Below are positions 21,147 to 31,430 of a DNA stretch of 64,000 nt, one piece after another. The stretch is from Sphingomonas sp. (lineage in GTDB: Bacteria; Pseudomonadota; Alphaproteobacteria; Sphingomonadales; Sphingomonadaceae), in contig NZ_JAIEPC010000033.1 in assembly GCF_019749955.1 (NCBI RefSeq), positions 53,979 through 117,978 on the forward strand, given 5' to 3'. Position 1 is the stretch's first letter; the number at the start of each line of letters is the position of its first letter. The notes beneath the pieces are model-generated. The model made no database searches. It saw only the letters and a list, made by a program, of their open reading frames with translations, and was not told the DNA's origin. The translations under genes were made by a program, and so were the position numbers.

Positions 21147-22079
21147 TCAGAGCGCGCGACCGAGCCGCAGGAACTTCTCGCGTCGCCCCGCAACCAAGGC
21201 GTCGCGTGATCGCAGCACCAGTGGGGCGAGTTCTTCGGCGATTGCCGTGGCGGTGCGGCGCATCGTGAGCGCGTGGTCGCGGTGCGCGCCGCCGGCGGGT
21301 TCATAGATGATCCGGTCGATCACGCCGAGCCGCAGCAAGTCGGCGGCGGTGATCCGCATCGCTTCGGCGGCCTCCCCCGCATGATCGGCACTGCGCCACA
21401 GGATCGACGCACAGCCTTCGGGCGAAATCACCGAATAGACCGAATGTTCGAACATCAGCACACGGTCGGCGGAGGAGATCGCCACCGCGCCGCCCGATCC
21501 GCCTTCGCCGGTGATAATCGCAATCATCGGCACGCCAAGCGACAGGCACCGCTCGGTCGAGCGCGCGATGGCCTCGGCCTGACCGCGCTCTTCGGCATCG
21601 AGCCCGGGGAAAGCACCGGGGGTGTCGACTAAGGTGATCACGGGCAGCCCGAAGCGGTCGGCCAAATCCATCAGCCGGATCGCCTTGCGGTATCCCTCGG
21701 GCCGCGCCATCCCGAAGTTATGCTTGAGGCGGCTGGTGGTGTCCTCGCCCTTGGCATGGCCGATCACCAGCACCGACCGGCCCTGAAACTTGGCGAGGCC
21801 ACCGATCAGCGCCTGATCATCGGCAAAGGCACGGTCACCGGCGAGCGGCATGAAGTCGGTGAACAGCCCGCCCACGAAATGGCTGAAATGCGGGCGCGCC
21901 GGGTGGCGCGCGACTTGCGCGCGCTGCCACGGGGTCAACTGGCTATAGAGGTGCGCGAGCTGGCGCTGCGCGCGTTCCTCCATCTGCCGCGCTTCATTCT
22001 CATGCGCGCCGTCGCGCCGCAGTTGGACGGCGTTCTTGTCGAGCAGCTCGATCGCTTTTTCGAAGGGCAGATAGTGCAT
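21147..22079 (-). CDS. accA: Acetyl-CoA carboxylase carboxyltransferase alpha subunit, mcr-linked
   Basis: 310 residues of the AccA family. It shows LTPWQRAQVARHPARPHF, FGMARPEGYRKAIRLMDLAD, TLVDTPGAFPG and GEGGSGGAVAIS. It transfers the carboxyl group from carboxybiotin to acetyl-CoA together with AccD, which is not in this window. ATG at 22079 has GGAAG 5 bases upstream and lies 11 bases after the malonyl-CoA reductase stop, so it is cotranscribed with mcr. The product, malonyl-CoA, is the substrate of Mcr. It is probably a second, pathway-dedicated copy; that needs the rest of the genome. Confidence 0.93.
   Translation of the reverse strand: MHYLPFEKAIELLDKNAVQLRRDGAHENEARQMEERAQRQLAHLYSQLTPWQRAQVARHPARPHFSHFVGGLFTDFMPLAGDRAFADDQALIGGLAKFQGRSVLVIGHAKGEDTTSRLKHNFGMARPEGYRKAIRLMDLADRFGLPVITLVDTPGAFPGLDAEERGQAEAIARSTERCLSLGVPMIAIITGEGGSGGAVAISSADRVLMFEHSVYSVISPEGCASILWRSADHAGEAAEAMRITAADLLRLGVIDRIIYEPAGGAHRDHALTMRRTATAIAEELAPLVLRSRDALVAGRREKFLRLGRAL

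Positions 22080-31430: not shown

Follow-up and report, generated by a model that had tools for sequence, protein, structure and literature searches.

The DNA analysed here, called the window throughout, is a stretch of 64,000 nucleotides from a Sphingomonas sp. genome (positions 53979-117978 of contig C120; the assembly has 3.22 Mb in 125 contigs and is 98.9% complete). Three intact ORFs lie head to tail on its minus strand: pcs, encoding a trifunctional propionyl-CoA synthase (25908..31430, 1840 aa), mcr, encoding a bifunctional malonyl-CoA reductase (22091..25774, 1227 aa), and accA2, encoding a paralogous acetyl-CoA carboxyltransferase alpha subunit (21147..22079, 310 aa). The spacer between pcs and mcr (25775..25907, minus strand) has 133 bases and could hold a second promoter, and the one between mcr and accA2 (22080..22090, minus strand) has 11 bases. 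The original prediction, made from the window alone, had given the same outer coordinates (21147..31430), the same lengths of Mcr and Pcs and the same 11-base gap, all of which were confirmed from the ORFs; its enzyme identities, the linkage of the genes and the sphingomonad setting were supported as well. The three genes are predicted to be transcribed as one operon. Scans for sigma-70 promoters (3, against a mean of 1.5 in shuffled sequence) and for terminators (7, against 7.1) gave counts close to those of shuffled sequence.

Downstream of accA2, on the same strand, lies an RND efflux set, and upstream of pcs are an APH-family phosphotransferase gene and panC. For comparison with relatives, 80 Pcs loci were kept of 319 found among genome contigs. 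Seven flanking ORFs of the window (one of which, 34202-35173, is probably no gene) were used as queries, and in none of the 80 related loci did a match near pcs exceed 60 bits, indicating that pcs-mcr-accA is placed elsewhere in the chromosome of these relatives. The G+C content over the operon (0.646-0.667) falls inside the range of the flanks and thus shows no sign of recent transfer. Clustering of the neighbours, based on ORF calls that are greedy and noisy, showed no conserved fourth gene in the operon.

Some other gene groups of the window were recorded on the way. Three adjoining genes with phage Tail Collar domains lie beside a GNAT acetyltransferase gene (55010-56652, minus strand). 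A gene for a DUF3419 protein adjoins a short ORF (45541-47475, minus strand), which is presumably the BtaA/BtaB pattern of betaine-lipid synthesis. On the plus strand (60489-62321) a PAD_porph-family deiminase gene is found beside a carbon-nitrogen hydrolase gene, which we take to be a putrescine-route pair.

Residues 25-1835 of Pcs matched the structure 6eqo with 2903 bits, an entry which we take to be the Pcs of Erythrobacter NAP1. Ligase, hydratase and reductase form one chain colinear with 6eqo. The acyl-CoA ligase part (residues ~94-859; 28854..31151, minus strand) was recognized by Pfam ACAS_N/AMP-binding/AMP-binding_C and the NCBIfam acetate-CoA ligase model, the enoyl-CoA hydratase part (residues ~892-1141; 28008..28757, minus strand) by Pfam ECH_1/ECH_2 and the NCBIfam enoyl-CoA hydratase model, and the enoyl-CoA reductase part (residues ~1267-1806; 26013..27632, minus strand) by crotonyl-CoA carboxylase/reductase and ADH_zinc_N models. 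Across 75 other Pcs rows, among them Chloroflexus islandicus and Aneurinibacillus danicus, 492 columns are invariant, and the protein keeps every one of them; five of the 80 loci, with best matches shorter than 1700 aa, were omitted from this count. The 6eqo match and the invariant columns together bear out, at the level of sequence, the original description of a full-length, trifunctional enzyme with intact motifs. Its N-terminus may be shorter than the ORF. Matches of the relatives start at query residues 1-30, mostly 18-22 (apart from loci L018 and L077, which are cut short), and another GTG codon occurs at residue 18 (window position 31379), so that the real protein may begin there and have ~1823 aa. 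By eye, no convincing ribosome site was seen at either start.

Pcs homologues were also found far outside the sphingomonads. Haloarchaea have full-length homologues, ~53% identical, on large plasmids (5 of the 7 matching plasmid records), and the one on a Natrinema zhouii plasmid lies near methylmalonyl-CoA mutase genes. Aneurinibacillus danicus, a member of the Bacillota, has a 60%-identical Pcs on a contig of 10.9 kb (NZ_BJXX01000001.1) in a genome without the reaction-centre family Photo_RC, which reflects either transfer or contamination.

Mcr aligned through residues 12-1227 with the full-length chain 8hi4 (1216 residues), presumably the Roseiflexus enzyme, and through residues 550-1227 with 6k8s, presumably MCR-C of Porphyrobacter dokdonensis; the half chains 6k8s and 6k8v were closer to Mcr in their own parts than 8hi4. 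The protein has the full length of ~1200 aa and the two SDR halves of a bifunctional enzyme. Its SDR3 core, in the malonyl-CoA reductase half (23453..24055, minus strand), contains S721-Y739-K743 and Y733/R736, with R775 and R789 just past it. SDR1, the malonate semialdehyde reductase half (24878..25735, minus strand), was located by profile match and carries the triad T173-Y186-K190, as assigned from the available text of PMC10470521. Structures of this type of malonyl-CoA reductase exist for Roseiflexus and P. dokdonensis, and the same text names catalytic and binding residues for the Roseiflexus enzyme; 17 of the 17 covered by the printed alignment, outside which Arg1164 falls, are identical in Mcr (PMC10470521). 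The 8hi4 alignment and these residues agree with the earlier claim of a full-length Mcr with intact active-site motifs.

AccA2 scored 435 bits against NF004344 (cut-off 357). Of the 78 columns with a conservation of 97% or more among 65 non-operon AccAs, it keeps 77. A second accA, 62-64% identical to accA2, is present on contig C116, and one accD-like gene, named from the matched part of the Carboxyl_trans profile, on C119. The AccA originally placed after mcr was thus correct in identity and position, to which must be added that it is a paralogue, the genome having a second accA. AccA2 is distinct from housekeeping AccA and its gene adjoins mcr, as would be expected of a dedicated subunit.

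Among the 80 related loci, accA follows mcr directly in 40 and lies 2 kb off in one (Glacieibacterium); no accA was found by mcr in 25 (one of these, Chloroflexus, is also without mcr), and 14 were not scorable. In 37 of the 41 loci with both genes the spacing falls between -1 and 31 bases, 10 of them having an overlap of one base (-1). Larger values were found in L033 (52 bases), L019 (63 bases) and L050, the Glacieibacterium locus (2077 bases); in L065 the stop search gave an artefactual value, and accA there matches from 60 bases past the mcr match. The copy number of accA was counted in the genomes of 50 of the 80 loci. Two accA genes were present in 22 of the 25 tested genomes with accA by mcr, the three with one accA only being two MAGs and Glacieibacterium, and a single accA was present in all 25 tested genomes with pcs-mcr only (Chloroflexus, with pcs alone in the locus, is counted here). 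G414, of the same genus as the window, has two accA genes, both of the non-operon kind (both 62%), so two copies can occur without the operon type.

The dN/dS ratio in eight close pairs of AccA2 was 0.04-0.11, which indicates purifying selection, and was higher (0.15 and 0.24) between the AccA2 of the window and two more distant copies. Among the operon AccA rows listed in the copy-number count, eleven contained one stop codon in the matched stretch, taken as overruns past the gene end, and the tblastn stretches of operon copies contained none.

A tree of 107 AccA sequences placed all 42 operon rows (two of them identical and likely from one genome) in one clade with SH-aLRT support of 95 against the 65 others, nested within the AccAs of Sphingomonadales. 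The enclosing fork (50 rows, support 94) also takes in the copy of Glacieibacterium and seven AccAs from a group that includes two Sandarakinorhabdus strains; the tree comes from a quick search with no bootstrap and has several long branches, and the order inside this fork is unsettled. Duplicate loci (L093, L128, L131-L154 and L157) and matches shorter than 255 residues were left out. In the Pcs tree, 39 of the 41 accA-type rows fall in one clade of 42 rows. The other two, L033 and L070, are placed outside this clade, next to a group of five accA-less rows (NAP1, Blastomonas and others), the branching order of L033, L070 and this group being not settled. The trees would be compatible with a single gain, followed or not by a single loss. 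Aerophototrophica crusticola (Rhodospirillaceae) has the three-gene unit and in addition an AccA that groups outside those of Sphingomonadaceae, a combination that suggests that the unit was transferred.

The only accA found in Glacieibacterium frigidum, ~2 kb after mcr, branches near the operon clade. It was considered as an operon copy and rejected, being the only accA of that genome. The arrangement possibly resembles the state before capture. We infer that the source of accA2 was a housekeeping accA of Sphingosinicellaceae-like type and that the gene travels together with pcs-mcr.

A passive hitch-hiker, or a plain dosage copy with no pathway-specific role, would also give a second accA at this place. 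Such an origin agrees with the nearest relatives of accA2 being single-copy AccAs (the Sandarakinorhabdus group, and G. frigidum with its gene 2 kb after mcr) and with Erythrobacter NAP1, Blastomonas and other pcs-mcr carriers being without such a copy. The tight spacing, with 37 of 41 pairs within -1 to 31 bases and 10 of 41 overlapping by one base, speaks against it, as do the single clade of operon AccAs under purifying selection and the Rhodospirillaceae genome that holds the accA of the unit beside one of its own type. The hitch-hiker explanation is regarded as rather unlikely, and AccA2 is likely to be, as predicted from its sequence and neighbourhood, dedicated to the pcs-mcr route. A literature search, which left subscription papers mostly outside its coverage, found no report of accA in the pcs-mcr operon of sphingomonads in the text available to it, and accA2 is apparently a conserved feature so far unremarked.

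Genes for the use of propionyl-CoA were found on another contig. On one strand of C105 lie a predicted pccB, genes for methylmalonyl-CoA epimerase (141 bits, cut-off 115) and methylmalonyl-CoA mutase (mcm; 1204 bits, cut-off 876), a biotin synthase gene and a predicted pccA, with small genes between them. For the predicted pccA and pccB no equivalog cut-off was reached, and their names come only from family and neighbourhood; a further carboxyltransferase gene is on C109. The biotin synthase gene (L127:5859-6890) sits between mcm and the predicted pccA. The original prediction had noted that pccAB and mcm are missing from the window, which is correct for the window; in the genome, epimerase, mcm and predicted pccAB are on C105, and with these predicted genes the Sphingomonas sp. 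likely has the route onward to succinyl-CoA. The route from acetyl-CoA to succinyl-CoA consumes three NADPH, with fixation of two bicarbonate. As the genome also has isocitrate lyase, growth on acetate need not rely on the route.

Membership of the genes in a full, autotrophic 3-hydroxypropionate bicycle was weighed as a rival explanation. The steps to propionyl-CoA are present and those to succinyl-CoA exist as predicted genes, and a complete bicycle has been proposed, according to the available part of the source, for MAGs of some Burkholderiales and Gemmatimonadota (PMC9802188). The original prediction had also called for mcl, and two HpcH/HpaI genes of the Mcl superfamily were found in the genome, for one of which the Mcl structures 5ugr and 4l9y were the best matches. 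Neither is in a glyoxylate-salvage cluster, an operon described for bicycle organisms in the available text of PMC9802188, and no mesaconyl-CoA genes were found beside either. The neighbours of one include genes for a succinate-glutarate-like CoA-transferase and an acyl-CoA dehydrogenase, and those of the other are genes of unrelated kinds. This CoA-transferase scored 76 bits against the mesaconyl-CoA isomerase model TIGR04253, far under its cut-off of 725 bits, and the second Mcl-like protein is closest to citrate lyase beta-type chains. Porphyrobacter ULC335 is likewise described, in the text available, as being without the full pathway (PMC10674011). Judged from the surroundings of the two Mcl-like genes and from ULC335, a complete bicycle is highly improbable, and CO2 co-assimilation without a closed cycle, as originally proposed, is supported.

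Propionyl-CoA could instead be fed mainly into polyhydroxyalkanoate or odd-chain lipids, with little part in redox balance or anaplerosis. Haloarchaea use the Pcs route for polyhydroxyalkanoate, and their plasmids carry full-length Pcs. The predicted propionyl-CoA to succinyl-CoA set of the Sphingomonas sp. genome and the strong linkage of Pcs to reaction-centre genes, given below, make this use very unlikely as the main one.

The linkage was measured in a family sample of 397 genomes, 41 of which had Pcs and 75 Photo_RC above the cut-off. Photo_RC was present in 37 of the 41 pcs genomes vs 38 of the 356 without pcs (Fisher p ~1e-26, in genomes that are related to each other). Counted by genus, with Photo_RC at E <=0.001 and the genus of the window credited through two other species, it was 12 of 13 vs 20 of 83 (p ~4e-6). 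The four pcs genomes without Photo_RC are that of the Sphingomonas sp. and three assemblies that are 67-88% complete, and 38 of the 75 reaction-centre genomes in the family have no Pcs. Among 50 named Pcs carriers tested from the 80 loci (a choice different from that of the copy-number test), 48 had Photo_RC, and these include members of the beta- and gammaproteobacteria, Gemmatimonadota and Chloroflexus; those without it were a 2.0-Mb Steroidobacteraceae MAG and A. danicus. As Pcs occurs in this Aneurinibacillus, where no type-II reaction centre was found, and on haloarchaeal plasmids, the enzyme in itself is not bound to light.

Within the genus of the window, Pcs was found in one of the 11 species sampled, and two further species, G413 and G415, have the operon-type accA, so that this species is likely not the sole carrier of the unit. 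Sites of the form TGT-N12-ACA, presumably a photosynthesis-regulator-like motif, showed no excess in the sequences upstream of pcs (4 sites in 78, from 77 loci and the window, vs 4.05 expected). Photosynthesis genes suspected by length upstream of pcs in one group of loci turned out by Pfam to be exopolysaccharide and exosortase genes. A search for rhodopsin gave no match, but the control genomes likewise gave no signal, so that it carries no weight.

The search for pufLM proposed with the original prediction gave a negative result: by profile, Photo_RC is absent from the 98.9% complete Sphingomonas sp. assembly, the sole such case among 36 pcs genomes of good quality. On this absence, the reading favoured first was a non-phototroph in which the operon had been kept or gained. 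It was dropped given half a photosynthesis cluster on C107 (34593-49985), with hemA, puhE, acsF, puhA and bchM, L, H, B, N and F; an ORF between puhA and bchM matched no model and is called lhaA by position only. This run stops 268 bases before the contig end, the assembly has no bchYZ-pufLM half, and there are two nitrogenase-like reductase genes (bchB, bchN) vs four in the relatives G091, G311 and G415. As the cluster half runs to the end of a contig, the missing part is most simply explained by an assembly gap, which is likely also the reason for the missing pufLM. A non-phototrophic host is considered unlikely, and phototrophy is deduced here from the half cluster, pufLM being absent from the assembly.

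In the proposed route, an acetyl-CoA carboxylase in which AccA2 is likely paired with the shared AccD would make malonyl-CoA, which Mcr would reduce with two NADPH to 3-hydroxypropionate. Pcs would activate, dehydrate and reduce this product to propionyl-CoA, and the predicted pccAB together with the epimerase and mutase genes would lead on to succinyl-CoA. For a host that likely has bacteriochlorophyll phototrophy, this would be a route for co-assimilation of CO2 and disposal of excess NADPH, and not for autotrophic growth. Judged from the genes, it is probable that the pcs-mcr-accA2 operon with its captured accA2 converts acetyl-CoA and bicarbonate to propionyl-CoA in light-supported co-assimilation or electron disposal. 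More tentatively, and with somewhat less than even confidence, captured AccA2 and shared AccD may make up an alternative carboxylase that feeds Mcr and parts light-driven CO2 co-assimilation from fatty-acid synthesis. The counts within one family (37/41 vs 38/356 genomes) tie a CO2-fixing side route to bacteriochlorophyll phototrophy. A conserved carboxylase isoform, if true, would explain how malonyl-CoA is split between lipids and CO2 co-assimilation, and AccA2 could be useful for 3-hydroxypropionate production.

The pcs-mcr chemistry is already known from the Erythrobacter/Porphyrobacter group. According to the available text of PMC10674011, Erythrobacter NAP1 and Porphyrobacter ULC335 have key enzymes of the 3-hydroxypropionate bicycle, for which CO2 co-assimilation was proposed, and the bicycle genes of ULC335 are up-regulated in day-time. 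A bloom study of 2024, in the part available, reports an incomplete bicycle in aerobic anoxygenic phototrophs (PMC11089705). Pcs of Erythrobacter sp. NAP1 is 69% identical to that of the window and has mcr directly downstream, as in the window, but no accA was found after its mcr and its genome has one accA. Erythrobacter dokdonensis DSW-74 (L057) has the same enzymes in the same pcs-mcr-accA order, an order that the other 17 rows in the Erythrobacter/Porphyrobacter AccA clade also show. These loci differ from the window in genus and, for the seven flanking ORFs compared, in chromosomal place.

Chloroflexus aurantiacus, from general knowledge of that organism, has a bifunctional Mcr and a trifunctional Pcs, and the window is alike in both. 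Unlike the window, the Chloroflexus islandicus locus showed no mcr or accA within 10 kb of pcs, and, compared with Chloroflexus, the Mcl-like genes of the Sphingomonas sp. have no glyoxylate-salvage cluster beside them. The carboxylase isoform also differs: in Chloroflexus the biotin carboxylase isoform BC1 was proposed for the bicycle in the available text of PMC11077971, whereas in the Sphingomonas sp. it is the carboxyltransferase alpha subunit. If its dedicated role is true, AccA2 would be the sphingomonad counterpart of the dedicated biotin carboxylase of Chloroflexus, reached via another subunit.
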